Part shown: positions 14,744 to 64,000 of the stretch, in pieces | Layout of the letters: the number at the start of each line of letters is the position of its first letter | Numbering within the stretch: position 1 is the stretch's first letter | DNA from: Stentor roeselii | Lineage: Eukaryota; Ciliophora; Heterotrichea; Heterotrichida; Stentoridae | DNA length: 64,000 nucleotides | Reading direction: 5' to 3' | NCBI GenBank assembly: GCA_006503475.1 | Contig: RSEH01000007.1 | Coordinates: forward strand, 1-64,000 | Made by a program: the position numbers and the translations under genes | The notes under the pieces: model-generated | What the model saw: the letters and a program-made list of their open reading frames with translations, nothing else | Told to the model about the DNA's origin: nothing | Databases searched by the model: none

Positions 14744-15517
14744 TTAACCAAAATAAATCTCATCAATTTCTTCAAACATTCCAAAACTTTCATCATCTCC
14801 ATTTCCATAATCCTGTAAAATCCTTTTAATCTCAACAGAGTCCTTTCCAGTCAACTCATTCATAAAAAATCTCTAAATAACCTCTACAATTTTCCTGAAA
14901 TCTTCATCAATCAACAGACTTTTCCCTAATTTCAAAGGAGACAAAGGTGGTTTACTAAACCCTTTAACAACATCAATCAAATCATTTTTTTTTCCATTAT
15001 CTTTCCCAATTTTTTCCTTTTCCTTAATAATCCCAACCTTATCCTTAATAAGTCTAATAGTATTTCTAGCACGTTTAACAATATCTCTACAAATATTTAA
15101 ATCATCAGAGCACTTTCTAATAATTCCATCATTTTTTTCTTCTTTTTGCATTTCCCAATTTTTTTCATCAAATTTTTGAGCATTGATAGAATTATGTCTT
15201 TTATGAATCAAGTCAATTGAATCCCCTGAGACCAGCTTTGGTCCTTCCAAGTCTTCAACAACAGTAAAAGCTCTTTGATGTAGTCTTGTTCTTTCTGGGC
15301 CTGTTATCGAGTTGATTGAAGAAGGGACCTGGTGTTGAAACTCTTCCATTAGCTCAGCTTTTCTTTTTTGCAATGCGAGGCGAGTGGTTTGAAGATAGTC
15401 TTCCATCGACGACGTGAGTGAACCAGTTTCGCTGAGTTGTTTGTAAAAGAAAGAGATTTGGTTTTCTTGTTTGGAGATTTCGTTCATGAGAGTCTCCAGT
15501 TTTGCATTGATTTCCAT
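14744..15517 (-). CDS. small coiled-coil protein of unknown function, one intron
   Basis: The frame from ATG at 15517 stops at 14873, inside a 15-nt intron (14873-14887). With the intron removed, the frame continues for 42 more codons to a TAA at 14744-14746, giving 252 residues. The first 60 residues are coiled coil with a Lys/Glu/Gln pattern, the middle contains an I-H-K-R-H-N-S segment, and the new C-terminal exon is acidic, ending in aromatic and acidic residues. I do not recognise the family. It lies 25 bases downstream of the neighbouring minus-strand gene. Confidence 0.7.
14873..14887 (-). other. 15-nt intron
   Basis: On the coding strand it reads GTAGAGGTTATTTAG: GTA start, A at position 10, AG end. 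Retention would end the protein inside the intron. Removal joins an open downstream frame. Confidence 0.85.
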
Positions 15518-15542
15518 TAGACTAATAATTAGAGATTTTTTG

Positions 15543-16046
15543 TTATATCGTGAATTTTAGTGATTTATTGCTATTTTCGGAGTCTTTTATCACGTATTTA
15601 GAGAAGTTTCTTATTTTTATGCTTTCTGACCTTCTGAAAAGCTGGAAAAAAGATACAGGATTAGAAATCATCCAAAGTTGTCCTTGTTTTTTCAGGTGGA
15701 AGTTATTCCATGAAGAATTTTTCAAGTTTTCCAGATTTTCTTCTATTCTTTTCCCATTCAGCAAATAAGTGATGATTCCCTCTCTGATATTTTCAATTTG
15801 AATCAAATTCTCATCATTCTGAAAAACATCTCCATTCGCTAAGTTAATTTCTTTAACCTTCATTCTAAAATTCTGAAATTCCTCTGAAGTTTCTTCCTGA
15901 ACAATCAAACATTTCTCAACAACAGAAAGTCTCAACCTAAACTTAAACCCTAAAACAAAGTCCATCTCTAAAACTTCAGAAGTCTCTAAATTTTTCCTAA
16001 TCTTCACATTATTCCCAATGAAAATAAAAACCTGTTCATTTTTCAT
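15543..16046 (-). CDS. unknown 167-residue protein
   Basis: The frame has an ATG start and a TAA stop, lies 14 bases downstream of the GTPase gene and 25 bases upstream of the next. The sequence alternates beta-like hydrophobic stretches (for instance F-I-F-I-G, F-K-F-R-L-R-L) with charged loops, and contains two W residues in its last third. A small beta-rich fold such as a PH- or FHA-like domain is possible, but no defining motif was found. No membrane segment or signal peptide is seen. Confidence 0.6.
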   Translation of the reverse strand: MKNEQVFIFIGNNVKIRKNLETSEVLEMDFVLGFKFRLRLSVVEKCLIVQEETSEEFQNFRMKVKEINLANGDVFQNDENLIQIENIREGIITYLLNGKRIEENLENLKNSSWNNFHLKKQGQLWMISNPVSFFQLFRRSESIKIRNFSKYVIKDSENSNKSLKFTI

Positions 16047-16060
16047 AATAATCTATCTAC

Positions 16061-18775
16061 CTATGCATTTTCATCAGGGAAGTGCTGATCAGCTCCAATA
16101 AACTTCTTAAAAAACTGAGAGTTTTTAATGCAGTTCACATTAGCAACTCCAGTCAAATAGTCCTGACTTGCCCTTCTCCTGTCTTCAAGACTGAGAGCTG
16201 GCTTGCTATTGAACAGTCCTCCTGACTGTGAAGGGAACAAGTTGCTCGCTTCAGGTACTTCAAGACTAGGAAATTCTCTTTGAATTGCTGAATGTAAAAG
16301 TGCGAAATTCTTAAAACGTCGCATGACAGTCCAATTCCTGCTTTTATAACTAATGCAAATCTCGTATTCCGTGAAAGGCTTCTGGTCAGCTACATCATCA
16401 CGAACAACTATTTGTTTAACAATAATTGAATAATTTCCAGCTTCTGTTGTTTTTTCATAGTTCTCCTGGCAAGACGTGACATGTCCTGAAAAAACTCCTG
16501 AAGCGAAATTTTTTCCACACATTTTACATTGAATCGACGCAGAAGCTTTCACCATTTTTTGGTATCTTTTTAATTTCACGATCTTGGCTTCTAGTTGTCT
16601 GCATCTTTCTTCAGTTTTTTCTAAAGCCATTGACAAGTGCTTTGCCGGGTCCTTTGAATCTGAACGAGAAGAGTCTTGTTGACGGGTTTGAAGTGCTGCG
16701 ACGAGAGCTTCTTGAACAGATTTGTTGTCGTCCAGTTGAGCTTTTAAAGTGTCCACCTGGCTTTTTAAGAAGTTTTTTTCCATTTGCCAGTCAGCAGGAG
16801 GTTCTTGTGGCTTTGGGGCAGCTTTTAGTTGTTTAATGGTCTCGTCTCGTGAGTCGATGTCGTTTTTCATGGCTTTTATGTTGACTTTCAAGTCTCTGAT
16901 TTCAGCTTCGAGTTCTTCTTTTCTTGTTTTAAGCTCGTTTGTTTCTCTTGTTTTCCATTCAAGTTCTTGTCGGGCTAAAGCGAGGTCTTTTTGAAGAGAG
17001 TTTATTTCTGAGTTGTACTTTTGGAGAAGGTCTTGATATAACTTGTTGGTTTCTTCGTATTTTTCTTTGTACTCAGTGTATTTTACTGATAAGTCGTCTT
17101 TCATGGTGGTCATTCTTTGGAGATGATGAGAGTTAAGCCGTTCTTTTTCATTTTTTTGGTCCTCAAGTTTCATTTCAAGACTAGCGACCTGTGCTTTAAG
17201 CTGATAATTTTCAGTTTCTAGTTCTTTTATGCGATTTTTATAATAGTCCTTTTCTTTGTTGAACTCATCTTTTTTTGACTCAAGAGCACCTCGATGGAAC
17301 TCCAGCTGTTGAGTTAATTTACGATTATTGTTCTGTTCCTGCAACATCGCATTGCGCATGATGTACTCAGCAGCTTCTATCATAAGATTCGCTTCAAGTT
17401 CTTTAAGTTTCAATTCAGTCGCATCACCTTTCGGCATTTTTTTCTTAAGTTCCGCAGCTTTTTTCTCATAGTCTCTTTTAAACACTTGAAAATCAGTATA
17501 ATCCCCAGCTCTAAGTTTATCCTGCATTTCTTGCATGAGACTTTGGCATTGTTCTTCACATTTTTCCAGAAGTTTTCTTTCATTTTGAGCTCTTACAAAT
17601 TCAAATCTTTCCCCAAGTCTTTTTTTAAGAGCTTCAATGTAAGGTGCAAGGTCTTCTCCAACAGCTTTTTCTTTAAAGTCTTTTTCAGCTTGAGTCTTAA
17701 GGTCCTTGTGAAGTTGTTTTAAAGAGTCTTGGCTAAGAGGGTCTTTTCCGACGTGACTTTTAAGTTTTTTGTCATATTCGCCGGTGATGAGGTCGATTTG
17801 CTTGTTGCACTCTGCACTGCAGACTGACTGCCAAGCGCCTTCAATGGTTGGAACGGCTCCTTTATTGATGGCTTCGACGTAACTTAAAGCGATGCCTGCA
17901 AGCATTTTTCCGTTTAAGGCTTTTCCGTTTAAGTTCTTGACTTTGACTTTTTTATAGATGAGTTTTTTTAACTGCGCCGTCATTTTCACGAACTCAGGAC
18001 GTAAGGCGGAAGCTGGAGCTTCTTGTAAGTGTTGAAGGGTGTTCTCGTCTTCGGAAGGACGAACTAAGGCGAAACAGTCCCGATCTCTGAAAAAATGTTT
18101 TAAAAGCTTTCGGACTCGGTTTTTTGCTTCGACTGCGTCGCTTGTCCCTTTTTGGGGTTGAAGAGCGTTTTCTAGATATTCTTTTGTAGTTATTGAGTTT
18201 CCGGTTGAGTCTACTAGCTGAAGGCTGAAGTCTCGTAACACCCAGAGAAGGGATGGGAAGTAATTTGCTAATTCTTCTACGTCCATTTCGGAATCGCTTG
18301 CACGGATTTGAAGGTTTTTTGTTAAGTTGATTATTAGGCTCATGTTGTTTAGAGCGTTCTCGTCTATTGAACCTACGGAGTTGTAAATGAAAAAGGAACT
18401 GAGAAGGACAGCCAACATAAAAATCCTGGTATCATGGTTCGCATCTTCATCAAAAGCTCCAAGTCCTTCACTATCTAAAATCAACAACGCGATATCATCT
18501 CCGTCACTTGTCTTGATATCAATTGGCTTCTCATAAATCCAAATGCCTTTAGTGCAGGGGTTAATCGTAGGTCCGACTCCAAATCCCTTACTCTTGATAT
18601 CTAGAATGATCTTATTTAACAAGTAGCTTTTCCCAGTTCGATACTTCCCAGCAACTGAAATGACTCCGACTTTCTTATCAATTGAATTCAATAAATTAAG
18701 TCCTTCAGGAGTGATACGAAAACCTTCTCTCTCATAATGCAAAATGAGCGGAATAGCAGAGCCTTCGATTTCCAT
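16061..18775 (-). CDS. GB1/RHD3-type GTPase (guanylate-binding protein family) with coiled coil, C2HC finger and PX domain
   Basis: The protein has 904 residues. The N-terminal domain has the large-GTPase signatures: P-loop GKYRTGKS at 43-50, DSEG at 101-104, and the RD motif of guanylate-binding proteins at 181-182 in L-L-W-V-L-R-D-F. A helical GBP-type middle follows, then a long coiled coil to about residue 740. A finger C750-x2-C753-x11-H765-x3-C769 comes next. From 782 to about 893 there is a PX domain, with R-R-F at 819-821 and a typical proline-containing loop before the final helices. PX domains bind phosphatidylinositol 3-phosphate, so the enzyme likely acts on endosomal or phagosomal membranes, where GBPs hydrolyse GTP and assemble. 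The combination with PX is unusual. Start ATG is preceded by AT-rich DNA shared head-to-head with the phosphodiesterase gene. Confidence 0.9.
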   Translation of the reverse strand: MEIEGSAIPLILHYEREGFRITPEGLNLLNSIDKKVGVISVAGKYRTGKSYLLNKIILDIKSKGFGVGPTINPCTKGIWIYEKPIDIKTSDGDDIALLILDSEGLGAFDEDANHDTRIFMLAVLLSSFFIYNSVGSIDENALNNMSLIINLTKNLQIRASDSEMDVEELANYFPSLLWVLRDFSLQLVDSTGNSITTKEYLENALQPQKGTSDAVEAKNRVRKLLKHFFRDRDCFALVRPSEDENTLQHLQEAPASALRPEFVKMTAQLKKLIYKKVKVKNLNGKALNGKMLAGIALSYVEAINKGAVPTIEGAWQSVCSAECNKQIDLITGEYDKKLKSHVGKDPLSQDSLKQLHKDLKTQAEKDFKEKAVGEDLAPYIEALKKRLGERFEFVRAQNERKLLEKCEEQCQSLMQEMQDKLRAGDYTDFQVFKRDYEKKAAELKKKMPKGDATELKLKELEANLMIEAAEYIMRNAMLQEQNNNRKLTQQLEFHRGALESKKDEFNKEKDYYKNRIKELETENYQLKAQVASLEMKLEDQKNEKERLNSHHLQRMTTMKDDLSVKYTEYKEKYEETNKLYQDLLQKYNSEINSLQKDLALARQELEWKTRETNELKTRKEELEAEIRDLKVNIKAMKNDIDSRDETIKQLKAAPKPQEPPADWQMEKNFLKSQVDTLKAQLDDNKSVQEALVAALQTRQQDSSRSDSKDPAKHLSMALEKTEERCRQLEAKIVKLKRYQKMVKASASIQCKMCGKNFASGVFSGHVTSCQENYEKTTEAGNYSIIVKQIVVRDDVADQKPFTEYEICISYKSRNWTVMRRFKNFALLHSAIQREFPSLEVPEASNLFPSQSGGLFNSKPALSLEDRRRASQDYLTGVANVNCIKNSQFFKKFIGADQHFPDENA

Positions 18776-18834
18776 TTATTCTTAAAAGCTGCTTATTTGA
18801 AAAATCAGGTTTTTGATTGTTTTTATATTAATTA

Positions 18835-20787: not shown

Positions 20788-20805
20788 GTTAAGGTAATTT
20801 AATTA

Positions 20806-21543
20806 TTAAAATTGGATGACGTCATCTGTGTAAATCCTCTCCTGCCATAAAGAGTCTTCGAAACTTTCTTCTGCTTTTCCTGATGTGCTTGTTTCTAACT
20901 CGTCTTTTAAGTATTTTAGAGAGATTCCTTTCATTGGAAATAGCTTTTCTTGGAGTTTTAGGTATTCGATCCAGTTTGGATTATTTTTTATCCATTCGAC
21001 TATGTAGGTGATTATGTCGTTTGCTCTTTCTATCTTGGGGGTTTCAGTCTCGCTTTCATATGCTATTCTTAAGTGTTCTTCACCTATTTTATCCAGCGCG
21101 CGTGACAAAATACTCAATTTTTGATCAATACCTTCACTTCTACTCCAGACATCTTCAGCAACAACCAAAGACTGATTAACATCCACAGCATGAAAGTCAA
21201 TATGAGGTTGTTCCTCGCTTTGAACAATATCATGAGAAGGCGCTTTCTTATGGATTTGTTCTAAAAGCTCAGGACGATTTCGCTTAAACTTGGGATGATA
21301 AAAAACCTTTTCAGTCTTGTTGTTCTTGTCACGAGTGAAGCCATAAAGATTGAGCTGTCGATGAAAACTTGAAAAATTTTTATGCTTGAAAAATTCCGGA
21401 AGAACTTCAGCAGTGAACTTGAGGACATCGTGAATGATAAACGAGGTGCCTTCAGGAAGCCAGCTGATGGAATCGTTGTACTTTTCCTCGTTGAGAATGA
21501 AGATCAGGGTATCCAAAAAGATACTTTTGTTTTCGGTTAACAT
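20806..21543 (-). CDS. heat-shock-factor-type DNA-binding protein
   Basis: The protein has 245 residues. Residues about 6-100 match the HSF winged-helix DNA-binding domain: an F-x-x-x-L helix near the start, I-S-W-L-P-E-G-T-S-F, then the recognition region F-K-H-K-N-F-S-S-F-H-R-Q-L-N-L-Y-G-F, and F-Y-H-P-K-F-K-R at the end of the fold. The remainder is short, acidic and lacks a clear long heptad-repeat trimerisation domain. HSF family proteins control transcription in the nucleus, but a protein with this short tail may be a small paralog or not stress-responsive. TATATAA directly precedes the ATG. Convergent with the phosphodiesterase gene. Confidence 0.9.
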   Translation of the reverse strand: MLTENKSIFLDTLIFILNEEKYNDSISWLPEGTSFIIHDVLKFTAEVLPEFFKHKNFSSFHRQLNLYGFTRDKNNKTEKVFYHPKFKRNRPELLEQIHKKAPSHDIVQSEEQPHIDFHAVDVNQSLVVAEDVWSRSEGIDQKLSILSRALDKIGEEHLRIAYESETETPKIERANDIITYIVEWIKNNPNWIEYLKLQEKLFPMKGISLKYLKDELETSTSGKAEESFEDSLWQERIYTDDVIQF

Positions 21544-21645
21544 TTATATAGAACATTCGGGAATATGGAAGTTTCATAAGATCGGAAAAGAAAAAATTTA
21601 GATTTTTTAAAGAAATTAATTTTTTTAGGTTTTTTTGATTTTTTA

Positions 21646-23714: not shown

Positions 23715-23730
23715 TTTAAATAATCTTATC

Positions 23731-25205: not shown

Positions 25206-26796
25206 ATGAATTGCAGTAACACTCTCTACATCATAGCAAGTTTTCTTGATCTTTACACTTTAACGACACTTTCATCAGTAAACAAGCAATTTTACAAAAT
25301 CTGTCAAAAATCAGCTCAATGGAAAGCCTTATTATTGATGGGATATTTTCAGGACTATGATTCGTTCGGGTAATAATAAAACAGCGACATTTCTCGGGGG
25401 GTTTTTTGGAGAAAACCATTACGACATGACTCAAATTGGAAAGTCTTGCTAAAAAAAAGGGTGAAATTATGTAAATTTGATTCAAGGCTGCCAATTGAGC
25501 CACCATTGCAAGACACTCTCAACAAGTTGATCGCTTTCATATCAGATGCTTTTGCTCATCCCCAAATTCCTCTTCCGGATATGGATCGAGAGTTGCCAGC
25601 ATTGCCGACCTTGTTTCAAAATCTTTTAGCTCGATGTGAAATTTCAAGTGGATCGAGTTCTCAGAGATTGTATGGGTCTGAGCTGGAAGAACTACTTGAA
25701 AAACTTCCTCTTGATTTTCAATTCAATCTTGACGAGTTTAATGTTTCACTCAGACTTTCTCCTGAAGATACCCGACGACTGACTCTCCAAGTCAATGACT
25801 GCGATGCTAACCGGTTTGGCCTTGGTTTATCAGTATCAGGGTATCTCGGCAATCATCTGCGAAAAATGATTCTTCATCATAGTTCAGTGACTTTGAGCTA
25901 TTTAGAAGAGCTTGAAGAAGGAGAAGAGCTTCTAAGCGAGTACCTTACCAGAGTAATTCCTAATCAGTGGCAAGCTTTTTCCGCGACAATGATGTCAATG
26001 TGGGATTTCTTAACATATCTCTCAAGGTCAAAAAGTCCAGAACAACAATTCTCCTCAATAGTTTCAATTTCCGCGAGTATATGTTTCATGAGAGACTGCT
26101 GGAAAAGTCTGATCTTCAATCACCTGGAATGTGAAATAAATGAAATTATACTGAATTTATTTCAAAAACAACGGAAAACAATAGGACACCTGCTGATATC
26201 ATCTGATAAGAACTCGCATTCAGACAAGACTCCCGACGTCATCTTGCAATTGTAAATAATAGCTCAGGGCTGTCTTGTCGCTTGCAGATCTCGGACTAGC
26301 CTCAGAAAATTTCATTTTTCTTCAGCATTCGAAGTGGATTCCCCCTGTTTACGCGATTTTACATCAGAAAGTGCTGGAAAATATGAAAGACTTCTACAAA
26401 GGTCTTCAAAATATCGAATTTTCTCAGGTTTTGAAGGAAATGATTGAGGAAAAAAATATGAGTGAGTCGATTTGGCTTCCTTGCACTCAAAGAAAACTTG
26501 ATGAAATAAGAAAAGAAGCTAAAAAAGAGTTATTTAAAATGTGCGATGAGACAAAAGACCTGAAAAACAGAGAATTTCAGATAAAAAATCAGTCAGAGGT
26601 TTGTAGAGGCTTTTCAATAGGCAGAAATCCTGAGTGGTTAGGAGAAACCAGGAAATTTGTTAAAAAAGATGAGAAATCGTTTCAAGAATTAGAGGTAAAG
26701 ACTACCTAGGCAGGAAGAGGCGACAAGTGGCAGCTGCAGGACCTGGAGATCGAATATTCAGGGAAGAAGATAGGTTTAACATTTGACTACAGGTAA
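25206..26796 (+). CDS. F-box protein with a region resembling the dynein heavy chain C-terminus, three introns
   Basis: Four exons (25206-25369, 25385-26251, 26268-26694, 26710-26796) join in frame into 514 residues. Residues about 5-45 look like an F-box (L-x-x-I-A-S-F-L-D-L-x-x-L ... V-N-K-x-F-Y ... W-K-A-L-L). Residues about 155-260 follow the pattern of the dynein heavy chain C-terminal domain: S-S-G ... L-P-x-D-F, then a hydrophobic helix ending near N-R-F, and L-x-x-x-L-T-R-V-I-P-N-Q-W followed by a W-D-F-L motif. The match is by pattern only and no AAA motor is present. F-box proteins serve as substrate receptors of SCF ubiquitin ligases. The stop codon touches that of the convergent MORN gene. 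Fold assignment of the middle is uncertain; the exon structure is firm. Confidence 0.7.
25370..25384 (+). other. 15-nt intron
   Basis: GTAATAATAAAACAG, with A at position 10. It carries an in-frame stop if retained; removal links the F-box exon to the long second exon. Confidence 0.9.
26252..26267 (+). other. 16-nt intron
   Basis: GTAAATAATAGCTCAG, with A at position 10. Its length of 16 changes the frame, and the two flanking open frames are in fact offset by one base, so this is strong support for real splicing. Confidence 0.9.
26695..26709 (+). other. 15-nt intron
   Basis: GTAAAGACTACCTAG, with A at position 10. Removal adds a last exon of 28 codons ending in the TAA at 26794-26796. Confidence 0.9.
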
Positions 26797-28047
26797 TTAT
26801 TTTTTTTTTAATAGCTTGCCTTTACTCCACATGTCACTATGACTGGCACCCGTGCTTGAGAAGCTGATACCGATGCCGTCTTTTTTATTGTGTTTCCAGT
26901 AACCTTCATAACGCCGGCCGTCAGGCCAGACGAACATGCCAAAACCGTGCATTAGGCCCTGGTTCCACTCTCCTAGGTACTCCCTTTGATCAGCGAAGAC
27001 GTATTTGCCAATCCCATGCATTTTATTCTCACTCCACTCCCCAATATACTGAGTCTTATCCTCCCACAGGTAATCCCCAAGCCCTTGTTTAACTCCATCA
27101 CGATAAACTCCAAAGAACTCAGACCCATCAACCCAAAAATTCTTCCCCCATCCATTTTGCTGATCATCTTCCCACATCCCTTCATAAACATCTCCAATTT
27201 CCCAGATATTCCTTCCAAACCCATGTCTTTTCCCATCCTTCATCTCTCCCTGGTACTTGCACCCAGGCTGGACTTCTAAAAAATTAAGTTTTTTAATTTC
27301 AGTCATTTTCGCCAAGATTTTTTTTTTCGGTTCAGTCAAATTTCTCAAATTCAAATTATGCTTTGAAATTATCTCAGAAGTAACTTTTTTATGAGTTTCT
27401 TCGAAATTGCTGTAAAACTCATGTTTTTGAGCAAGCCATGAAAAACCATCTGAATTTATTGATGGCTGTAGAGGGTAGGGGTTAATCCAGAGGCCTTCAT
27501 AGAAATCCCCGTCTAAATAGGAAAATTTTCCTTTGCCACTTGGAAGGCCGAATTCCCAGGCGCCTTGATAGAAGCAAGAGTCAGGCCATTTCATTGTTCC
27601 GATGCCGTGACGGAATCCTCGAAGCCATTGACCTGAATAAACAGCGCCTGAAGGATAAGTGTAACTTTTTACTGAAAGTTCTTCTGTGATTGGAAGAGTT
27701 ATTATTTTTTGGCCTAGGGTCAGCATCAAGTCATTTTTGGAAAAATAAGGAAATTTGTTCATTCGTAAAGAACGTAAGAAGTAAAATTGCTTTCGTTCTA
27801 AATGACCTCGGCATAAGGCTTGAAGCTTTAGAACTGAAGAGAGTTTATGAGAGTTTTGTCTTTGGGATGATGGGTGAATTGGGTTGAAAACTGTACTTGG
27901 AAGCTTCATTTTTATGTCGGGGTCTGTTGTGTTGTGGTAGTGGTCTGGGTAACAGGGAGCCTATGTGAAGGGTACTTCTTTTATCAGGTCTACTTCGTTC
28001 TTAAAAAGTTCACCTTTGCAACATTTCGAGCAATTTGAATTTCCCAT
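26797..28047 (-). CDS. MORN-repeat protein with IQ motif and N-terminal acylation motif, one intron
   Basis: The ATG at 28047 opens an exon of 24 codons that joins after a 15-nt intron to the long frame, giving 411 residues. It begins MGNSNCSKCCKGE, a myristoylation signal with nearby Cys for palmitoylation. An IQ-like motif (L-Q-A-L-C-R-G-H-L-E-R-K) lies near residues 69-82, a possible calmodulin site. Nine or so MORN units follow from about 132: YSGQW, YQGAW, YEGLW, a linker, then YQGEM, YEGMW, a weak FGVY, YIGEW, YLGEW, YEGYW. MORN arrays bind membranes or act as scaffolds in ciliate cortex and cilia. Taking the first Met of the long frame (27909) would miss the acylated N-terminus. Confidence 0.88.
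27961..27975 (-). other. 15-nt intron
   Basis: Coding strand GTACCCTTCACATAG, A at position 10. Retention gives an immediate TAG; removal joins the acylation-motif exon to the MORN frame. Confidence 0.9.
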
Positions 28048-28228: not shown

Positions 28229-30652
28229 TTACTTTTTAGCAAGTCCAACTCTTATCCCAGAAGCCGTGCAAGGTCTTTGTTTTCCAGTAGCAGGTCGAGA
28301 GCTGATCTGTTCAGTGATAAAAGTATATTTATCCATAAGTCTTTTCTGCGAGTCAATCACCACTTTACTCTCAATCTTATTTTTCATAAGCACAGCATAA
28401 AAGTCCTTATGTCTATCACGATCAGCAACAATTTTCTTCAACTCAGTTTCCAAATCCGCGACCTTAACCTGAAAATTTTCATTATTTCCTTTAATCGCTT
28501 TATTTTTTTTCATCTTTTCATTAACCTCCTTCTGCATCTGAGTAGCAGTCGTTCTTAAAGTAAACATTTTTTCAAAGTCCTCATCTTGTTCCTGGTCTTT
28601 TTCCGTGTCTTGCTTGTCAATTTCCTTATTTTTTTCCTGTCCCTGAGGAAAACTGAGTTGAAAAGTTGACCTGACCTTGTTAAAGTTCTTTTGAGTGCCT
28701 TGCACGTACTTTTTAGTGAATAAATTATTTGAAATCTTGATGAAATTGTTGTCTTTCTGTGAAGTCAAAATTCCATTTTCCTTTAAAGCCTTGAAAAGAC
28801 TGTTTAGACCTTACAAAGGGAATTTTTCTCTCATTGGATGTTTCGGCATATCATGAACTGTCATGTAAACCGGCTTGATCCCTGAATGAAAAGCGCCTGA
28901 CTCAGTATCTTTAATGATTTTATCGATATTCTGAAATAAAGCGTAAATTTGAATGATTTCATTTTGAATACCTGCAACTTTTTCCTGTTTTTCACGAATA
29001 TAACTGTTACACTCTAACTCGAATCGTCGAGCTTCCTGGTCTAGTTGTTTTAAAGAGTTTTCATTTTCTTGGAATATTTTTGAAAGGCTTTTCTTGTGAG
29101 TCTCTTCACACAAGTCGAACTTCTGGACTAGCTCCTGCTCCAGCTCTGACTTGCCCAGGTCTTTGTAGTCAGTCATCGCGCGCATGTCTGAAGCGATTGA
29201 CTGAAGTGTGAAAGGCAAGTTATGGATAACAGCAGCTTTTTCTTCTAGCTCCAAATGATTCGCAAGTAAAATCTGTTGAAACTCTTCAGCTTTAGTCGAG
29301 GTTTTTTTTCTGATATTCTCAGAAATTTTCTCATTTAATTCAATGATCTGGATTTTTACTGCTCGGATTTGATCTTCTAAGTTTTTTATTTGATTCTGAA
29401 ATTTTTCCTTGTTTTTCATTTCAAATTTTTGGATTTCTTCGAAGATTTTCGTGTTTTTCATAAGTTTTACCTCAAGTCGTTTGTTTCTGTTGTGGACTTC
29501 ATCTAGAATAAGGACAGAGTCAAGATGAGTTTCAATGATTTTCCTTTCTTTACTTGAAGGGTTGGTGGTGACTGACTCGACATCAATATTAAATCCGATG
29601 ATTTCTCCGAAGCTTCTTAATTTGAGTTCATGATGTTCCTGGCTTTTATCAATAGAATGTTTCAAGTCCCTGATTTCATCCTGCAACTTTTTCATTCGAT
29701 TTGTTTGTTGATGACTTTTAAACACAAGGTTTTCAGCAGTGGTGTTATTTGTATGAAGATAACACAAGTTCGCATAAGCCAGACTTTCAGTTGTCTGACG
29801 TAATTGTCCAGGGTGGACATTGAAAAGAACTGAAGTCAGACAATGATGCTTCAAGTTATTCGACAAGATTTTACTTAAAGTACTTTCATCACTCGAAGCA
29901 TGATGACCTTGCTGCAAGTCAACAAGTAAATTTTTTATCGAAGCTAAAGTTTTCTCAATGTTTTCCTGCCCTGAGTCACTATCAGCCAGGTCAACAAGTG
30001 TAAGGACTCCTGACTTGGTCATATTCATTTCTTTTTGAGACACCGTGATTTTGAAGACCGTGTGAATGTGAGACAGGTTCTCGCCATTTAAACTTTGAGA
30101 CCTTTTCAGTCGTTTCCCTTCTTGGATCATCTGCTGGGCTTCCTGCAAAGTTTCAATCTGAGTGACAGTCAAGTTGTCGATGTAAACATTTCCATGATGT
30201 TCTCGGATTTCTAAACTTTCTTCACCAAATCGTTGTTTTCCATCAGATAAGACTTTTGCCAGGTCTTTAATTCTGTCATTGCAGATTTCAAAGCAACTTA
30301 AAATAATCGCGATGCTTTTTTTCGACTTTAAAATTTTCACTCTTCCGAAGATGTCTTCTAACAACCTTGGAATAAGCCCTTCATGGCCGGTATCGCCAAG
30401 AAGACTGTAAGATTTTCCAGAACCTGATGTTCCATAAACTAGAAGAATCCCGTTTATGCCTCTTAACAAGTTGTCTGTTAACGGTTTGCCGATTTCTTCA
30501 TAAATCTCTTGTTGAGATGAGTCTTTTGGGAAAATTTTGTGAAATGTGACTGACTCTGAGTTGTACTCGATTGAAGAGTTTGAGATTTGGTAAGGGTGAA
30601 ATTCTTTTGAATTACGGATTCGCAGGTAAAGCTTGACGACTTGTGAAGCCAT
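28229..30652 (-). CDS. divergent kinesin-like protein, one intron
   Basis: Two exons (30652-28815 and 28799-28229) encode 802 residues. The motor domain fills about the first 310 residues: P-loop GTSGSGKS at 74-81, and a recognisable L-V-D-L-A switch II. The switch II Gly and following residues are altered (DLADSD instead of DLAGSE), and switch I reads N-G-E-N-L-S-H-I-H in place of N-x-x-S-S-R-S-H. ATP hydrolysis may therefore be weak or lost. A long coiled coil follows, and the second exon adds a charged coiled-coil tail of about 190 residues with a Lys-rich end. It could be an inactive or microtubule-binding kinesin. The kinesin subfamily cannot be set from sequence reading. Confidence 0.85.
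28800..28814 (-). other. 15-nt intron
   Basis: Coding strand GTAAGGTCTAAACAG, A at position 10. It contains the apparent stop of the motor frame; removal joins the kinesin to a 189-codon coiled-coil tail that would otherwise look like a separate gene without an ATG. Confidence 0.9.
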
Positions 30653-35422: not shown

Positions 35423-36490
35423 ATGTCTAAACAAATAATGATTGCTGACAGGCCAGGAGACAGTGCAGTAAAGCAAAGCATCGGTAACTACAAAGGAGTA
35501 ATGCTCTGCAACAGGCCAAACGACCCATCAGACAAGCCACAAAGAGAAGGTCCTACGCCATTCATCTCGCGAGTAACTGTCAAAGAACAGCTAGGCCTGA
35601 ACCCAGCAACGAAACAAGCTCAAGTTCTAGTCCGTCCAAAGAAAACCCTAGAAATTCTAAACAGGCACAAGCAGTGGCTTTTCCAGCTTCAAAAGCAAAA
35701 AGACGACAACTTGCAAAAAGAACTCGAAAGAACCAAGATCCAAGAAGTAAAAATCCAAAAGATGAAAAAAAAGTACTCAACAAGCAAGAAACCAGAAGAA
35801 TCCTCAGACCCTTCAAAAGAGTCCCCAGATCAAATAAAAGAACCTTCAAAACCATCAAAATCTGAAAAGTTGACCGAAAAAAACCTAAAAACCCTTGAAA
35901 AAGAAGCGAAACCAAAATGGGCTCTTACCCAAGAACAAGCTGAAGAATTAGAAGAACTAGAAGTCGACGACTTGCTTCAATACGTAAACGACTTGGACTA
36001 CGACAAGTTCATCGAAGATCTGGAAGTTCGTCAAGCTTTAGAAATCGTGAAAGAACGAGTTGAAGAAATCAAGAAAGACAAAGAATGGAAAACAAAAATC
36101 GCTGAAAAGTTCAACGAAGATGAAAAAAGTGTGAACAGTCGAGGTTCAATGAAAAGTTATGAATCGAAAGCCAGGTCTCAGATCTCTCGAAATGAAAAAG
36201 CACAGGACTGGGACCGATCAGTAAGTTAAAAATAGACACGTCCTGACCGGGTCTCAATCACTGAAGAAGAAAGAGTAGCCAAGCTTGTTGCTGACCAGGT
36301 CCTGGCGAACTATCCAGTAAGAACCACTTAGAACTTAAAGTCAGTGCATTCAAATGCCTCTGTGAGGAAAATGCTTGAACGAGAAGCGAAAAATGCCTTG
36401 ACCGGCCCAGTGATTTCTACAATAAAAGATGAACCGGTAAAGCCGGATCCGAGTAACTTGCCTTATTTACATAGAAATCCAGCGGTTTAA
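35423..36490 (+). CDS. charged coiled-coil protein, two introns
   Basis: Exons 35423-36220, 36236-36316 and 36332-36490 join in frame into 345 residues. The N-terminus is not charged-biased, then Lys/Glu-rich helix, a Ser/Pro/Lys linker near 130-150, and a second charged helix with an L-E-E-L-E-V-D-D-L motif. The last exon ends D-P-S-N-L-P-Y-L-H-R-N-P-A-V. Many ciliate and flagellar axonemal or basal body proteins look like this, but no domain is recognised. Convergent with the large Ser-rich gene; the end of the coding region lies inside a 31-bp tandem duplication. Confidence 0.75.
36221..36235 (+). other. 15-nt intron
   Basis: GTAAGTTAAAAATAG, A at position 10; starts at a codon boundary and contains in-frame stops. 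Confidence 0.9.
36317..36331 (+). other. 15-nt intron
   Basis: GTAAGAACCACTTAG, A at position 10; its removal connects to a 52-codon last exon. Confidence 0.9.
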
Positions 36491-39500: not shown

Positions 39501-42500
39501 TAGATTTTGATCCTTGTTCACGTGATGAAAAGTCTTGAATCGATTCCTCAATAGAATATTTTTCAATATCCTTAAGTTGTTTCACAGCAAGTTCCTGAGC
39601 ACGTGCAAAAATCACTCCAACATCTTCAGGTTCTGACTCAAATTCATCAGAATAAATTTCACTCGACCTTACACTGGGAGCTTTAGCAGACGCTTCTGAA
39701 TCAATATGAAAATATTCCTTGACAAGTACTTTGATAAGGTTATATTCATCTTTTTCTTTAAATATCGGGTTGATGAAAGTTTCCATCTTAGCTACTTCAT
39801 CAGGTCCAGTGGCTTTATCGCTGACTTCCTTGCGATTGCCAAATGCAAAAGCAGCAGACTGGGAATAAGAAATACTTTCACTGATCCCCCCGTCTTCAAA
39901 CCGGCCAGGGACATAAGCTTCAGGGTAATACTTTAACAAAATCTTGTGAATATCGTTTTTCATTTCCTTGTCAGTCGGTACTCCCAACTTCACTCGAAAC
40001 AAGTTCTTCCTTACAAGGAATCCTCGAATCCAAGCCTGAATCTTGCTGGCGGCTTGAAAGATTTGGACTTGATCGTAAATTCTTCTTAATTCATGAGTTT
40101 CTTGCATGTTAGAAATTCCGGGAATTTTAAACATCTTCACTTCTAGGTCGTCTTCGATTATTGCTTTTGTTTCTGAAGGTTTTTTAGAGGGATTATTGGT
40201 TTTGGATACTTTTGAATCGATTTTCTTCTCGATGTCTGCGAGACGAGTACGAAGATTCTCTTTTGCGTCGGGCACTGAGCCCAGGAATAGGTCTCGAGGG
40301 GGACTTGTTGGAAAGGAAAGATTTGTTGGACGGGATGAAGGGTCTGCTTTGGGATGTAGAAGGTAACGAGTGAAACCAGGGAGTACTTCGTTGTTCCCTG
40401 GGTAGAGGGGAGGTGAGGAGTGGTCTACTTTTGAAGAAGGGTTTGCTTGGGGTTCTGGGTTTTGAGGTTTGGATGGTTTTAATGGCTTTGATGGCTTTGA
40501 TATATTTGAAAAGTCTGGTTTTGGTTCTGGTTTTTGAGTGGGCTTTTTGGATTCGGCTTTTAAGGGAGGATGTGAATCGGGAGAACTAGAATATGGGTCA
40601 GACCTTTCATGAAATCTCTCAGATTCTTCCTCATTTGAGTCATCTTCCTGTCCATACTGCTGATAATTTTCCTCACTAAGATCTTCTTGATTTTCTGTAT
40701 ATTCTTCATCCTGGCTTCCAGATTCATCATCACTCTGATACTCTTCTTGCTGATCATAGCTCTCCTCATCCAATTCAATATTTTTTTTGAAATTTTGTTT
40801 ATTGCTAACCCTTTGATTCCTGATTTCTTGACTATCATCTTCAAAATCCTGACTATCACCTTCATTATCTTCACTATCACCTTCATTATCTTGACTATAA
40901 CCCTCACTATCTTGACTCTCATATAAATCAACTTTGCCTTTAATCTTAATCTGCTTCTTTTCTTCTACTCGATGCTTATTAATAACCTCTTCCTTCATAA
41001 TATGCCCATTAACACCCTTTCCCTGACTCTTTGGCTGCTGATTCCTAATCTGAAGTTTTTCTGCTGATTCTTTAGATAAAGTTTCACTTTCAAACTCTTC
41101 ATCTTGATAATCTTCTGAGTAATTCGAAGGTTCTCTGCTATTCCTGCTAATCTTTTCTGAATCAAAACTTTCAATCCTGAGTTTTTTCTTATTTTTCATC
41201 TCACGTGAGTTGTTTTTGTCTTTATTCAAAGGAGAAAGGTTGAACTGTTCACTATCAACAACATAACTGATGCTCGAATTTGACTGTCCTTCAAGTCCTG
41301 GTGTTTTTTTTCCTTGTTTTTCTTTTTTTCCTAGTTCTGAGACACGTTTGTTGATTTTTTCTTTGATTTCTTGAATGGGAGTGACAGGTCTTGTAAACTT
41401 CTGAGGTTTTGCAAGCATTTCAAGCTCTTTTAATGTCTGTATTTTTTTTCTGATCTTTTCATGCTCTAGAAGTTCCAGATGCTGTTTTTGCTCTTTTTCT
41501 CTCTGCTTTTTTTCCTTCATCCACTGCTGGATCTGAGGATTTTGAGCCTTTTTAGGCGATTTTTCTTCTGGCTCTGAGCATGTTCGCTTTTTTTCAAGAA
41601 GATTCGGGTAAAGGTCGATGATTTCCAGGCCGATTCTTGCTCTTCCTGCTTTTTTTACTTTTGCTCGGTAGTTTTTTTTGTTTTCTTCTGAGATTTTCTT
41701 CATTTTTTCTTGTTCTACAGAAGTTTTTCGCCCTTTTTCAGTGAAATTTCTCTCATCGACTCCCCATTTTCCAGAAGGCTGATAAGGGACAAGCTGGGTA
41801 TTTTTAATTATTTCTTTGGCTTCTTCCACCACTTTTTCCATCATTTCTTGCTTGGATCTGAGTGACTCTGTCTCTGGAGCTAGTTTCTGTTGAAGTTTTT
41901 TATGCTTTTTAATGTTTTCCTTAACTAACACCTGAAGTTTTCTTAGTTTTTCCTCGTTTTCCTCTTGATTCTTGACTTTTTCTTCAAGAAGTGTAGGTTT
42001 TTCTATTTTCTTTCCTGTTTTTTCCAAGTTTTTCTGAGAACTTGAGAATTTTTTAGTTTTTGCTTGATTTTCTTCTGATATTTTCTCATTTTCAAGTCTT
42101 TCCTTCGACCTGGTATAGTTTTTTTCTTCTATTCTCTGAATATCATCGATTTTTTTCTCACTTTCCCTGCGAATTTTATTCCTTTCAGTGACTTTCTGGA
42201 CAAAAATTTGCTTTTTAGACATTCTTTCCCTTCTTTCCTCGAAACCATTCAATCCTTTTTTATGATTCATGACTTTAGCGGTTTGAGGTCTTGTGACAGT
42301 GACTCCAACACTGAAGTTCCTATTGTTGGTCTTTTTAAGAGTGACAGTTGTTGCTTGAATATCTGAGTCTTTAATGATTACAGCTTCTGGTTCAGCGGGT
42401 TTACAAATGATTCTGTCGTCTTTTGGTTTGTGATTGAAGGACACGAGGACTTTTTCCTGGTCGATGAGACTTTGAAACGGGTTTCTATTTTTTCATTACC

Positions 42501-60600: not shown

Positions 60601-60739
60601 TTAAGAGAAGGGTGGAAACTTTGCAGTATTTGGTGGAGATCTGGTTGGTTTTGCTCAGGTCTTGGTCGAGAAGGTTGATTGTTTTAAAGGATTTTTCATC
60701 AGGTCTCACTGATGAGTTGAAACTCTTACGTCTCTTCAT
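54641..60739 (-). CDS. P4-ATPase-like/guanylyl cyclase fusion, paralog 2
   Basis: The protein has 2032 residues and is collinear with the gene at 44524-50649. The phosphorylation loop is degraded further (E-I-F-G-V-L-A at 377-383 where DKTGTLT belongs), so the ATPase part is catalytically dead in both paralogs. The actuator P-A-D-S-L-I-L stretch remains. The first cyclase domain has Asp1371, Glu1411 and Lys1415; the second has Asp1855 and Asp1899. The residue pattern again places nucleotide binding in the first half and metal binding in the second. The catalytic domains are the most alike between the two genes, the ATPase parts least. Tandem duplication with one gene between them is the likely origin. 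Guanylyl rather than adenylyl specificity is inferred from the Glu. Confidence 0.92.
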   Translation of the reverse strand: MKRRKSFNSSVRPDEKSFKTINLLDQDLSKTNQISTKYCKVSTLLLKTCLELLSLPVTYLYIFLIIIQLSGYIQETSLKLSTIIPFSILSILKLLENLSLSKSQENYDFDQNEKIIAIYKENNFQLLESKNICEGDLVLLRAGQEVPADSLILASDAEASSIFFKLSENSQSSCLLKKKSIRESQNLISHNGISLDQMKNLVQYVKVRKTSSLSSAEYCKIKFRDNPVIVYTDGDNFVESGSVLVECEWILLLSVFVGDEQKKRENVEKVRKKKTTDFDVLIHVLAGFALIFYVFFFLVIFFTGPVYDQIDNDENKISLAFYILTLYAGILPNNLYLIIFTQRVFSILVLNHRFPCIQVNNPRILSNLGKIEFILTEIFGVLAEKDLRAEAIFLKNTLYSNSQVSISESEEYENNSESQSLSRNPTETNEKTFKDLKDEIFSEPVDEEKMLFVYCLAICNEFISESSSTPSKNSDSVLIQLAASLGVKIREKTGKTFVLEFDSKTSTFSVIPSFKPDPRDSQVKMIIKNHHNGKIYLVHKLSFADLDVDELVEEDEAYAENEIPEFETLQRVLFLYKPLDSTDMEKVKNDYKSIFQSRVNLKYASNAIFNSYLGDMKVLGQIGLKLVVPQETIRSLKEIQSSGVKVWIATTEDESLALNCAQISTLLEKDSKVLFFNCCASKNQVQDRIDSAIQSLFYPSSSHMPSGQDEKVSSTKYSEHLFTNHNELMTRRKFENRPNYSELVLKKEESKYGKMPLGEVESFTLVLDSRFFNICLNSKYLLKGLVLLMVSADSVVMHSFSSADKMNVLKVLKKGLKYKPMTMAVGTEDDAFGMMTEADVRVKVSSDIYSNWFLNDVSISSFSPLKQVLFSIGDNMFQSLITTCSLFLLKEVSLVVMLFIYQSKCLFSACPFLGYDLLVMYEMGISFFYIFFIGFYIEKSENCEGINIQSSKYLRKNLDLSKLLLVLAKFVGLGLVQGVLMIFFISLSAQPINTTEGLTEDLESVQILTFLVVTSKLLIEGVILMKGSKRSLILASVYFCLMIIILICVFNSKFEVTYLSLQEFMVRPWIWLLLFIILSLSSLLFYLLLLFVYPFVYKKVNRLKEFKNIEDMFSSLISLITSPGQTDFDLDSFWMRFKEKSMELDYLEVKKPTIFRRVKILMVVLLVIATINNIIIEVDQVGVLDIKRLTVILTSLCLLTVILVFWCFKAKHTYMLVSFIFISVLVMSLIETFLSNTHSSSPRYPVFLVIYLLILNTEWSQSLFQSFLIYLFSILVTVYETYYQDLNSLSSFLPIWLILMFFLTLLIQITTYQAQKVQRHEHIFIKQSELQFEKTQTIIAYLLPDFVRRRVQDGVRYIAEDKGTVSVIFCDIYDFESIIESYNPAELTDFLNNLFSRIDLLCENYGITKIETVGKTYLACAGLKDSEVGVPSKILKNHHTRRAIEFALAIVKLTESITLKEEKKLQFKIGVNSGAVTAGVVGFHKPQFSLVGDTVNTASRMASTLKEINSVQISEETFKLLEDRSALCFEDRQREVKGKGFMETKLVQYAKDGNSGDDTSDYFNRRSSIFSVISTPRLEEISQKDGKKASRDRASLLNNLGATTVGELFKKQTARRVNTVLDLFCKETEAEKNFRLNYLQIVSKGNQLGLLLSLLCDCSLITVEVILFVLELKNRSLPRMLVSILSAVFIGFMISIRTRHFTSIRFSLVLSGLFTLEFVGVFISENLRDRVDLITFMYFSYKFIMLNFYSGTLFSKNIFFNLVAVSLWTTSTFTPPFTYPSVLYSISFMIIALLTVYLNENRMRINTVLKNIAQKEVDKTEQLLTHMMPLNALRSLEQGKQVMDKLKHVTVMFADIVGFTAWSSIRRPKEVVNMLSEMFTRFDKTSVECNVYKVHTIGDCYVAMGYLDDKNRNPAKEATNMLHFACRLIQLINETNEKCGIQLGMRIGMHTGEITGGIIGTKIIRYDIYGVDVQIANKMESNGMSGKIALSETTKELIEDFAQGEFKFSFAKSIEVPGRVEEMEIYFYEGDF

Positions 60740-61139
60740 TTTTATATTGGATAAGATTTGATCTATATAAGACTAATTAATTTCTCAAAGAAGTACAATG
60801 AGAAAAAAATTTAAATAGAGAAGTTTAGGATTTTGTTTACTTTATGTTTTCTTAAAGGTGAAAATTTAAATAACGTGATTTTCTTTCAAGTTTAATATTA
60901 TCAAAACTGAAAAAATAACTAAAATGGTTTTAAATTATTCCTTCGCTCAAATTCTCTTCAATCCTGATTATTCTCCAATCCATCTCTGATGTAAGGTCAT
61001 TTAATAAATTCAAAATTTCTATCATCTTAAACACAACCCTTTTTCTACGTTAGTTCAAGATGGAAACCTTTCCAAATCCTTTAATAATGACTCAAGTCCA
61101 AAAAATTCTTGAATATAATAAAATAATTTAAAGTTAATC
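60740..61139. other. intergenic DNA upstream of second cyclase gene
   Basis: AT-rich with no coding frame; the ATG of the cyclase is preceded by an AATATAAAA element. Nothing further is recognised. Confidence 0.6.
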
Positions 61140-61565
61140 TTACTGTACGTTGCAAAAATTATAAACCCAAGGACACTGAAGATCACTAGTCTTCATCGGT
61201 CTACTAATATACTTTACTTTATTTTCTTCAACCAGGTTCAAATCCTGGAGCTTTTTAATCAAAAAAAGCTGCAGCCTAATCGAAAGGTCTTCAATTTTAA
61301 GTAAAATCGATTCGATGATCTCAGAATTCATAGGCCTATGATGGAGCTGCAGTCTTAAAATAATGATTTTCCCAACGATTTCAACTTCTCCTATAGTATA
61401 GCAATCTTTTTCAAAGTCAAGTGAAACTTCATTGAGTTCCTTCCAGTTCTGTTCAGAGTAGGCTTGAACCAAGTTCTTGACATGAGTTTCAAGTCCGATC
61501 TCGCAAAGCGACTTGATCAGATCAATCCGAGAAGAATTTTGTGAATCGTTTGAATTAGTGGACAT
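61140..61565 (-). CDS. small helical protein, weakly resembling an HPt domain
   Basis: The protein has 141 residues with an ATG start and TAA stop. It is predicted to be all helix. The segment S-L-D-F-E-K-D-C-Y-T-I-G resembles the helix of histidine phosphotransfer (HPt) domains, in which a His would lie nine residues before the Ile; here the position is Leu, so a phosphate relay role is unlikely even if the fold is right. The end, C-P-W-V-Y-N-F-C, is unusual. No other family is recognised. Confidence 0.5.
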   Translation of the reverse strand: MSTNSNDSQNSSRIDLIKSLCEIGLETHVKNLVQAYSEQNWKELNEVSLDFEKDCYTIGEVEIVGKIIILRLQLHHRPMNSEIIESILLKIEDLSIRLQLFLIKKLQDLNLVEENKVKYISRPMKTSDLQCPWVYNFCNVQ

Positions 61566-62324
61566 GATTTTTCAAAAGTATTAGGATTTCGAGTGGTAGA
61601 AAAAGCATTTCGTGGTTATTTTGACTCAAGTTTATATGAAAGGGGTCAAGAAAAGGCTGAGGAAGGCTTTTGAGGTTTAGATTTTTTTTAGTTTGATTTG
61701 ATTGAGTCTTTTGAGTTGGATGAATAAAATAAGAAATTCAGGAAAACCTTTCTGATTGGATTTTAGAGGTTTTAAGCCATGGATTTTGTGAGAATTGAAA
61801 GAAGTTCTAGAGATTATATACAGGTTGGTAGGAATTTCTTGATTGGATTCGTTCGGGATAGATTTGTTTGTGGAAGTAATGATTAGATTGACTTTGAAAA
61901 ATTTTATTTTTCAAAATTCGGAGGAACTAATCATTATTCAACTTTAAGCAATTTTAAGTATTGTTTGCATGCAGATCAAGAACTTACAAGAGAATTGAAC
62001 TTACCAAGGAATTCAAGATTTTTCAAAAAATTGATTGATTTCTTCAGAATTTTCTGCCAGAATCAACAAGATTCTTGATTAAATTTTGCAACCTTGCAAG
62101 TAATCCCTAAAAAGAAATTTCCTGATTACTAATAATTCATTCTTGAAGTTAATTTAAAAGTTATTTAGTTTAACTTACTATTTCAATAATGTTTTGATCA
62201 TGATGAGCAGGATTTTTTCAAAATAAAACTTTTCCTATCAACTTCCAAAATTATCTCAAGCCATAACCTAAATTCTAAACCTAAAATCCATAAGCCCTAA
62301 ACATTCACTAAATGTCTATAAATC
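61566..62324. other. 759-bp gap without recognised gene
   Basis: AT-rich. A 35-codon frame at 61779-61886 is the longest plausible one and has no support. No tRNA or repeat was identified. Confidence 0.55.
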
Positions 62325-63581
62325 ATGTCAGTCCAAGATCTTCCAAGCGAGTTATCCAACTTAAGAAATGAAGGAATTGAATCCTGCATAAATATCCCTC
62401 ATTTAAAACTAGGAAAATCAATCCTGTTAGCAATATTTTACCTGAAATCCTTCATCCCAAGTTATTCCTACATCTGCCAGATGCTAAAAACCAAGTAATT
62501 CCAAATCAGGTTCATATTAACAAAGAAAAAAAACGATTCTTTCAATAATTTCTACAGTCAAGACCTCTCAGTCCTGGAAGATCCGTCATTTTTATCTTTT
62601 TTGAGCGAATTTGGCGATGCCCTGATAAATGTATCAGATGTTTCACAAGAACCTATAAAGTTAGAAACTTTGAGTCGAGACCTGAACATAAAGCTTCGGA
62701 TTTACAATGATGGAGTTTTGATCCTTGAAACCTCTTCATACGAGTTCAGTCCTCCAGTCCCAGTTTATTTGAACATGGTCATCACCAAAGACAGTCAACA
62801 AGTAAATTATATTCTTTTGTCTAACGAAATCAACATCAATAAATTCAATGTAAGTCAAGTTGCTCAAAACCTCGAACCTCTTAAATCTTTCTCAAAAAGT
62901 CTCTCAAGTCTCTTTAATACCAACCCCGCTAGTAAAGGGCTGAAAGACTGGGCAGAAAAGATTTTAAATGACTTCGGAGAAGAAGCGAACAAGTTTGACC
63001 TTATAAAAAGTATTCAAAATGCTAAAAAAGTAATAAAAATCACTGGACATCTTAAAACTTCTAATCGGTCTTTTCATGAACTACAAAATCTTGGATATGC
63101 TAAAATTGATGAGTCTAGATTTTTCAAGAAATTCGCACCGCTCCCGGTAGGCGACCCTCTGAAGGACCTGGAACCGACTGAAGAAGAGTCAGACACTGAC
63201 AGTGAAAGTGATGATGAAGAGAGTATTAAAAGAAAAACTGTTATTTGCACTGAACCTACCAATGAACCGATTCAGTTTGATAAGGATTCACCGCCTTGGG
63301 ACCCGAGAAATTTGGAGAATGTTAATTTTTCTGAAACTGGAGATATGCCGGCTTCTTCAGAGTCTCATGTGCCTCAGATGACTTCAGGAACTAGTTCTAA
63401 TGAACCGCATTGTGATAAATGCAGAAATAACCCGATTGATTTAGAAATTTTTCTTGAATGCAGATGCAAGCTTTCATATGAATGCTTTCAGGAAAGTCTG
63501 GTTACGAGAATTTGTCTTAAATGCAATAAGCAAGTTTCAGAACAAAAGTATTCGGAGCTCAAGCTTTATTTTGATATTTAA
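62325..63581 (+). CDS. unknown protein with Cys-rich C-terminus, one intron
   Basis: An ATG at 62325, just after TATAAAT, opens an exon that joins after a 15-nt intron (62495-62509) to the longer frame, giving 413 residues. The N-terminal 150 residues are hydrophobic and helical, with some resemblance in pattern to the OTU/otubain fold but without its Cys-His catalytic motifs. The middle is acidic and Ser-rich. The last 56 residues hold Cys358, 361, 374, 376, 382, 392 and 395, a C-x2-C ... C-x-C ... C-x2-C zinc-binding arrangement akin to a partial RING. A ubiquitin-related role is possible but not shown. The long frame alone lacks an ATG at its start. Confidence 0.65.
62495..62509 (+). other. 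15-nt intron
   Basis: GTAATTCCAAATCAG, A at position 10. It contains an in-frame TAA; removal joins 56 codons of first exon to the main frame. Confidence 0.9.
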
Positions 63582-63612
63582 ATTAGACTAGAATTATGAA
63601 TAATAATTAACT

Positions 63613-64000
63613 ATGGGAGTTTGTTTCTCGAACCCTACGCTTAAAACTATACCTGTGAGGCAGAACAATATTCCTGAGTCTTTTATATCCAAGTCTATGA
63701 AACTCATAAGTATTCACTAGGTAGATGTTCATGATGATTACAAGTTTATTAAGGTACTTGGACATGGACAGTTTGGTACTGTTCGAGAAGCTATTAAACT
63801 TAATGCTCAGAACTCGTGTTTAGAAAAAAACTATGCAATTAAATCAATCCCAAAAAAAAAGATGAACGTTACTCTTCTAAGGCGTGAACTAGAGATTATG
63901 AGTCAACTTGACCATCCAAACCTTGTGAAATTATACGAAACCTACGAAGACGAACAGTCTGTACATCTTGTGATGGAATTCTGTTCAGGAGGCGACGTAT
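63613..64000 (+). CDS. calcium-dependent protein kinase (CDPK-like), 5' part, cut by window end
   Basis: Only the first 124 or so codons are present. An ATG at 63613 gives MGVCFSNP, a myristoylation and palmitoylation motif typical of CDPKs. A 15-nt intron (63710-63724) removes an in-frame stop. After it the kinase N-lobe is clear: glycine loop G-H-G-Q-F-G-T-V, Y-A-I-K-S with the ATP-binding Lys, R-R-E-L-E-I-M with the helix C Glu, D-H-P-N-L-V-K-L-Y-E-T-Y, and hinge V-M-E-F-C-S-G-G-D. These match plant/protist CDPKs and related CaM-kinase types. The catalytic loop and the EF-hands lie past the window, so calcium regulation cannot be verified here. Confidence 0.9.
63710..63724 (+). other. 15-nt intron
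   Basis: GTATTCACTAGGTAG, A at position 10. It carries an in-frame TAG; removal joins the acylated N-terminus to the kinase domain. Confidence 0.85.

Follow-up and report, generated by a model that had tools for sequence, protein, structure and literature searches.

Tiny, predominantly 15-nucleotide GT-AG introns in Stentor roeselii and their relation to those of other heterotrichs

The closest described counterparts of the introns considered here are those of Stentor coeruleus, in the published survey of which 8005 of 8806 introns are 15 nucleotides (nt) long with an adenine at position 10 (A10), and a further 633 (7.2%) are 16 nt long, most of them (442 of 633) with the adenine at position 11 (A11) (PMC9505925). 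Introns of 15 nt likewise predominate in the gene-dense somatic genome of Blepharisma stoltei (PMC9942806; PMC11441545), and the share of 16-nt introns is given as ~5% in heterotrichs (PMC11441545). Paramecium and other ciliates also possess short introns, with in-frame stops guarding against the retention of those whose length is divisible by three (3n); however, the introns of Paramecium are longer (~25 bp), with 3n lengths being under-represented (PMC5014332). Here we examine a 64,000-nt stretch of Stentor roeselii (positions 1–64,000 of contig RSEH01000007.1; hereinafter the window), in which an original prediction had listed eleven GT...AG elements of 15 or 16 nt as introns.

We consider it highly probable that these sites represent U2-type spliceosomal introns, predominantly of exactly 15 nt and of the form GTA(A/C)NNNYYANNYAG, in a heterotrich-like ciliate that uses the standard nuclear code. 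They have in common with the tiny introns of S. coeruleus (PMC9505925) the length of 15 nt, the GT-AG ends, A10, the standard code, and normal U1, U2, and U6 pairing boxes, and differ from Paramecium introns in that their predominant length is itself 3n. They are thus a well-supported new example of the already known Stentor/Blepharisma-type tiny introns, with a few new details, namely the lack of a 16-nt excess in the sub-motif that we counted, which sets them apart from S. coeruleus, and probable stop-free introns; we make no claim that these details are absent from print.

At all eleven listed coordinates there is a GT...AG element that begins with GTA (positions 1–3), has A10, and ends in AG; as sequence elements the sites are confirmed. 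Ten of them are 15 nt long and one (26252) is 16 nt long; seven lie on the + strand and four (14873, 27961, 28800, 42485) on the – strand, a point on which the original prediction was silent (Table 1). Its length formula, with four or five bases including the AG after A10, is one short, as a 15-nt intron has five bases there and a 16-nt intron six, and the logo that it proposed, GTA.......A....AG, spans 17 nt with the adenine at position 11 and mismatches the listed sites. The motif that it attributed to this sequence can indeed be seen here, but A10 had already been published for S. coeruleus (PMC9505925).

To see these elements apart from their motif, we used a local sample of 323 kb, comprising the window, 25 further stretches of at most 10 kb, and three small nuclear RNA (snRNA) loci, from a genome of 44.4 Mb in 522 contigs (smaller than that of S. 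coeruleus); 277 of the 323 kb are coding by our own coding model. The main scan, which ignored A3 and A10, took every GT...AG of 9–30 nt that, once removed, leaves its two coding flanks fused in frame, and it required an in-frame stop inside the removed piece at 3n lengths but no stop at other lengths. Repeated at four flank lengths under a calibrated coding rule, it gave 18, 18, 18, and 17 matches at 15 nt, as against 0–5 at the other 3n lengths and 0–4 for six other end-dinucleotide pairs at 15 nt; the non-3n lengths gave 7–18 matches at the shortest flank and 0–6 at the longest. All of the 15-nt matches carried A10 (18/18, 18/18, 18/18, and 17/17), and nearly all carried GTA (17/18, 17/18, 17/18, and 16/17). 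Earlier scan rules were dropped, with too-high absolute coding-score thresholds returning zero matches, and uncalibrated frame-difference or margin rules resulting in noise or the loss of real introns. In a first scan with dinucleotide controls, GT-AG at 15 nt alone had 11 matches versus a control mean of 1.15 and maximum of 7. A looser union scan returned 50 matches at 15 nt versus 26–28 at 12, 18, and 21 nt; both A3 and A10 occur in 31 of the 50, and all ten listed 15-nt sites were recovered among its 14 window matches. Two heterotrich traits are hence present: the predominance of 15 nt with GT-AG ends (in the scans, the genome-wide counts, and 10 of the 11 window sites) and A10 in the 15-nt introns (18/18 motif-free matches and 10/10 listed 15-nt sites).

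For the genome-wide counts, one strong sub-motif (GTAAG..TA..TAG) was used, with the background taken from the same motif at nearby lengths. Its 15-nt form, GTAAGNNNTANNTAG, occurs in 643 copies in the 44.4 Mb, while the same elements total 175 at 17–20 nt (43.75 per length, identical whether the left or the right spacing is stretched) and 155 at 12–14 nt (51.7 per length), amounting to an excess of ~600 copies over the neighboring lengths. A reversed-pattern background (643 vs 168 for 15 nt; 39 vs 163 and 33 vs 253 for 16 nt) was rejected as unfair, given that stop trinucleotides are part of the forward motif but are missing from its reversed form.

The spliced products were also compared with homologs. 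From 31 high-confidence introns, four that fall within conserved domains were selected for comparison with solved structures, and in 4/4 the spliced protein runs without a gap through the junction in the alignment with its best solved homolog (Table 1); when intron 63710 was tried, its junction fell just outside the kinase domain match. With homologs from within the sampled loci, the spliced form outscored the retained form in 5/6 comparisons (4/5 introns). The clearest case is the phosphodiesterase against its intronless window paralog, where splicing gains 23 score units, and no other five-residue deletion up to 30 residues away beats this gain. These results bear on the proposal that the sites are chance GT-AG pairs beside ordinary stops, assembly indels, or pseudogene breaks, picked by eye for their motif. 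The original prediction did choose its sites by motif, and GT-AG pairs are common enough for ~27 of the 50 loose-scan matches to be due to chance; nevertheless, the motif-free counts at 15 nt versus other 3n lengths, with A10 throughout, the genome-wide copies at 15 nt versus those at 12–14 and 17–20 nt, and the four gapless alignments render this exceedingly improbable.

A search for the U1, U2, and U6 snRNAs yielded one match each over the Rfam cut-off, with the pairing boxes kept in all three (U1 ACUUACCUGG, U2 GUAGUA, and U6 ACAGAGA). Alternatively, the 15-nt elements could be short inserts of DNA, namely internal eliminated sequences that persist in the somatic copy, or unspliced segments bypassed by the ribosome. 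While short DNA segments are eliminated in ciliates, the GT-AG polarity of these elements follows the coding strand, their internal adenine stands at a fixed place, U1, U2, and U6 are canonical, and an intron class of the same build has been published (PMC9505925); we therefore regard inserts or bypass as very improbable. The fixed length, GT-AG ends, GTA, A10, the joining of the flanks on removal, the insert-free homologs, and the normal snRNA boxes instead point to splicing of these sites with probable branching at A10. The motif-free scan, genome-wide counts, homology, and canonical snRNAs thus bear out the original prediction that these are tiny spliceosomal introns of the Stentor type. 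A loss of the splicing factor Slu7 owing to the short distance between the branch and the 3′ splice site, an idea that derives from work in yeast, was considered and rejected, as a Slu7-family protein match is present (C310:121408-121986, – strand); its presence argues against this factor of the 3′ splice site having simply been lost. In this the genome differs from that of S. coeruleus, in the survey of which Slu7 was not found by BLAST (PMC9505925).

Based on the spacing of these elements, and following the published account for S. coeruleus (PMC9505925), we propose that the 5′ end of U1, and then the ACAGAGA box of U6, would pair with GTAAG, while the GUAGUA of U2 would pair around positions 5–11 with A10 bulged as the branch nucleotide. 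This would result in a lariat loop of 10 nt with a 5-nt tail, and the 5′ site, branch, and 3′ site might then function as a single rigid unit that determines how long the intron is. A11 was weighed as the branch base and is less favored, being far from invariant.

Several results weigh against the above interpretation. At the shortest flank of the motif-free scan, some non-3n lengths equalled the 15-nt count, and on pooling 15 and 16 nt in the first dinucleotide-control scan three control pairs exceeded GT-AG and others equalled it. One homolog comparison (L017:2897; 28% identity) favors retention, with a score difference of –12. As for the branch, the sole ground for assigning it to A10 is conservation, and A11 is also common, being found in 58% of the 31 high-confidence introns (a value inflated by the stop requirement) and in 37 of the first 100 of the 643 genome-wide matches.

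The original prediction further envisaged two length classes sharing A10. This is not supported: S. coeruleus 16-nt introns mostly have A11 (PMC9505925), and here the 16-nt class stands at the genome-wide background in the tested sub-motif, with 39 copies having A11 and 33 having A10 versus 43.75 per length, a count that presumes the sub-motif to be used as frequently in 16-nt as in 15-nt introns and that 16-nt introns with weaker ends, such as 26252 itself, would escape. The S. coeruleus ratio predicts ~33 more copies with A11 (~77 in total; P ~1e-6), and for both 16-nt forms together P is ~3e-9 at that ratio and ~2e-6 at a share of 5%; the minor heterotrich trait of a 16-nt class of ~5–7%, mostly with A11, was accordingly not observed in the GTAAG..TA..TAG sub-motif. 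Locally, the strictest setting of a motif-using scan gave 22 matches at 15 nt, one at 16 nt (26252), and 1–3 at each of 13, 14, 17, 19, and 20 nt. At 26252 the reading frame shifts by one, and a 16-nt GT-AG junction joins the open frames, but a rival 25-nt GT-AG junction at 26238 joins the same frames; a 16-nt intron at this site is hence unproven, with an assembly indel as an alternative. The published 16-nt shares (PMC9505925; PMC11441545) and this frame change would both favor two length classes of 15 and 16 nt as in other heterotrichs, with 26252 as an ordinary 16-nt member. However, given the sub-motif counts at both published shares and a single local 16-nt match at the level of the background, we consider such a pair of classes unlikely. 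It is conceivable, though somewhat less likely than not, that this lineage lacks a 16-nt class and that its intron has become rigid at exactly 15 nt, with fixed spacings of 10 between 5′ site and branch and of 5 between branch and 3′ site, so that the loss of the own-phase stop yields silent, stop-free introns.

Since 15 is a multiple of three, only a stop codon in the intron's own phase would close the frame through a retained copy. In every phase such a codon can be supplied by the motif, namely by TAA at positions 2–4, TAA or TAG at 9–11, and TAG at 13–15, and it is present in many introns, but probably not in all. Among the 31 high-confidence introns, the stop is the TAG at 13–15 in 15/15 of phase 0, lies at 9–11 in 5/5 of phase 1, and at 2–4 in 10/11 of phase 2, a pattern largely built in because detection required a stop. 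With nine hidden candidates included, 27/37 have own-phase stops versus 21.6 under permuted phases (P 0.02), in a test that retains detection bias and false positives; this is suggestive of selection for own-phase stops, as known for 3n introns in other ciliates (PMC5014332).

Stop-free introns would add five codons if retained and, if the 15-nt unit is rigid, would be visible as pairs of stop-containing and stop-free paralogs. The original prediction had supposed that such introns are hidden in the long frames; this is probably right, but for a minority of introns only, as suggested by a small excess and two paralog pairs. Frames of 300+ codons show no excess of stop-free GTA-A10-AG elements (30 sense, 35 antisense), and with a weight matrix at scores of at least 12 they contain 3 sense, 1 antisense, and 3 reversed sites. 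In the 277 kb of coding segments, 9 sense stop-free sites score at least 12, versus 4 antisense, 5 reversed, and 3.85 in codon shuffles; 4 score at least 14, versus 2 antisense, 2 reversed, and 0.45 in shuffles; and at 15 or above there is 1 sense site versus 2 antisense and 0. The highest-scoring stop-free site on the sense strand (15.4, a level of at least 15 also reached by the two antisense control sites) begins at 25953, in the gene that also carries three of the listed introns, and has no homolog among the sampled loci; it is the best candidate in the window for a hidden stop-free intron.

Two paralog pairs share a 15-nt element, matched in position and phase, of which only one copy has an in-frame stop. 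The first pair (L002:1702/6266), on the + strand of one 10-kb stretch, encodes proteins that are about half identical; one copy has an in-frame TAG, and the other, which scores 10.8, is stop-free and reads V-I-I-I-K. The second pair is L013:7471/L002:3594. Alignment scores with both copies retained or both spliced are 721/714 and 190/185, and the mixed combinations are the lowest (699 and 699; 175 and 171), which indicates that the elements correspond but is not proof of splicing in the stop-free copy. A kinase case, L022:2731, shows mixed gains of –4, +8, +6, +1, and –10 in five comparisons, and if the element is retained, MST-kinase alignments need a net four-residue gap there; at L007:2741 splicing gains 11. 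Taken together, the antisense control and the paralog scores make the stop-free part of the proposed rigid 15-nt unit less sure.

The genetic code is the standard one, with TAA, TAG, and TGA all acting as stops: TAA terminates 45, TAG 32, and TGA 5 of the 82 stop-to-stop frames that reach 300+ codons in the first 270 kb, and the in-frame stops not attributable to introns in the coding frames of the local sample number 6, 10, or 11 for TGA, 4–11 for TAA, and 2–4 for TAG, depending on flank length. In-frame TGA is therefore rare, unlike in Blepharisma, which reads UGA as tryptophan (PMC9942806). TGA is more abundant than either of the other two stop trinucleotides, yet it closes few of the long frames, which is explained in part by TAA and TAG inside introns. 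Two adjoining glutathione-peroxidase-like genes on the + strand of L004 (G000:C15:20001-30000; ~8776–9297 and 9466–9987) each have an in-frame TGA within NVACK/NIACK-TGA-QLAGK, at the catalytic Cys/Sec place; when the first is aligned with a solved enzyme, its TGA falls on the catalytic Cys. Both are thus probable selenoprotein genes in a standard-code ciliate. No selenocysteine insertion sequence (SECIS) match was found within this L004 stretch.

Table 1. Positions of the listed and candidate introns in the window, and of gapless junction matches in the sampled loci
Feature	Position	Strand	Evidence or remark
15-nt intron GTAGAGGTTATTTAG, phase 0	14873..14887	-	Recovered by loose scan; spliced frame of 265 codons
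15-nt intron GTAATAATAAAACAG, phase 2, possible F-box gene	25370..25384	+	Loose scan; F-box matches weak, under cut-off
Candidate hidden stop-free 15-nt intron GTAATTCCTAATCAG, phase 0, gene of 25370	25953..25967	+	Absent from the original prediction
Possible 16-nt intron GTAAATAATAGCTCAG with A10, or indel or other junction	26252..26267	+	Frame change there
15-nt intron GTAAAGACTACCTAG, phase 0, gene of 25370	26695..26709	+	Loose scan, spliced frame
15-nt intron GTACCCTTCACATAG, phase 0, near start of MORN-repeat/IQ gene	27961..27975	-	Loose scan, Pfam
15-nt intron GTAAGGTCTAAACAG, phase 2, kinesin gene, after motor domain	28800..28814	-	Scans, Pfam
15-nt intron GTAAGTTAAAAATAG, phase 0	36221..36235	+	Loose scan, spliced frame; no Pfam match
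15-nt intron GTAAGAACCACTTAG, phase 0, gene of 36221	36317..36331	+	Loose scan, spliced frame
15-nt intron GTAATGAAAAAATAG, phase 2, near start of 2008-codon gene	42485..42499	-	Loose scan, spliced frame
15-nt intron GTAATTCCAAATCAG, phase 2	62495..62509	+	Loose scan, spliced frame; no Pfam match
15-nt intron GTATTCACTAGGTAG, phase 1, just before protein-kinase domain	63710..63724	+	Loose scan, Pfam
Gapless spliced match, cyclic-nucleotide phosphodiesterase	L007		Best solved homolog
Gapless spliced match, OST48	L024		Best solved homolog
Gapless spliced match, Sec63	L022		Best solved homolog
Gapless spliced match, PRL phosphatase	L024		Best solved homolog

Beyond the introns, the window encodes two long open frames on the – strand (44527–50649 and 54644–60772; 2041 and 2043 codons) that combine P4-ATPase-type and guanylyl-cyclase domains, a fusion typical of alveolates. 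Coding density, the code, these fusion frames, and the 15-nt introns together indicate the genome of a heterotrich-like ciliate that is unlike Blepharisma in its code. Three adjoining frames on the + strand (323–1723, 2185–3597, and 5427–6404) have C-terminal WWE domains and are probably a local gene family, and a guanylate-binding-protein GTPase (GBP, GBP_C) on the – strand (16064–18775) bears a C-terminal PX domain, a combination that is, to our knowledge, uncommon. Neither a tRNA nor an Rfam match at the gathering score was found in the window.

Near-minimal introns such as these probe the lower size limit of a spliceosome substrate: as the branch and the 5′ site are ten bases apart, the pairing of U2 and that of U1/U6 must abut or overlap. 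One dominant length, together with pairs of stop-containing and stop-free paralogs, would help to tell whether a length ruler or selection against retention is at work. For annotators these introns also carry a warning, in that stop-free introns of 15 nt would be taken as exon.

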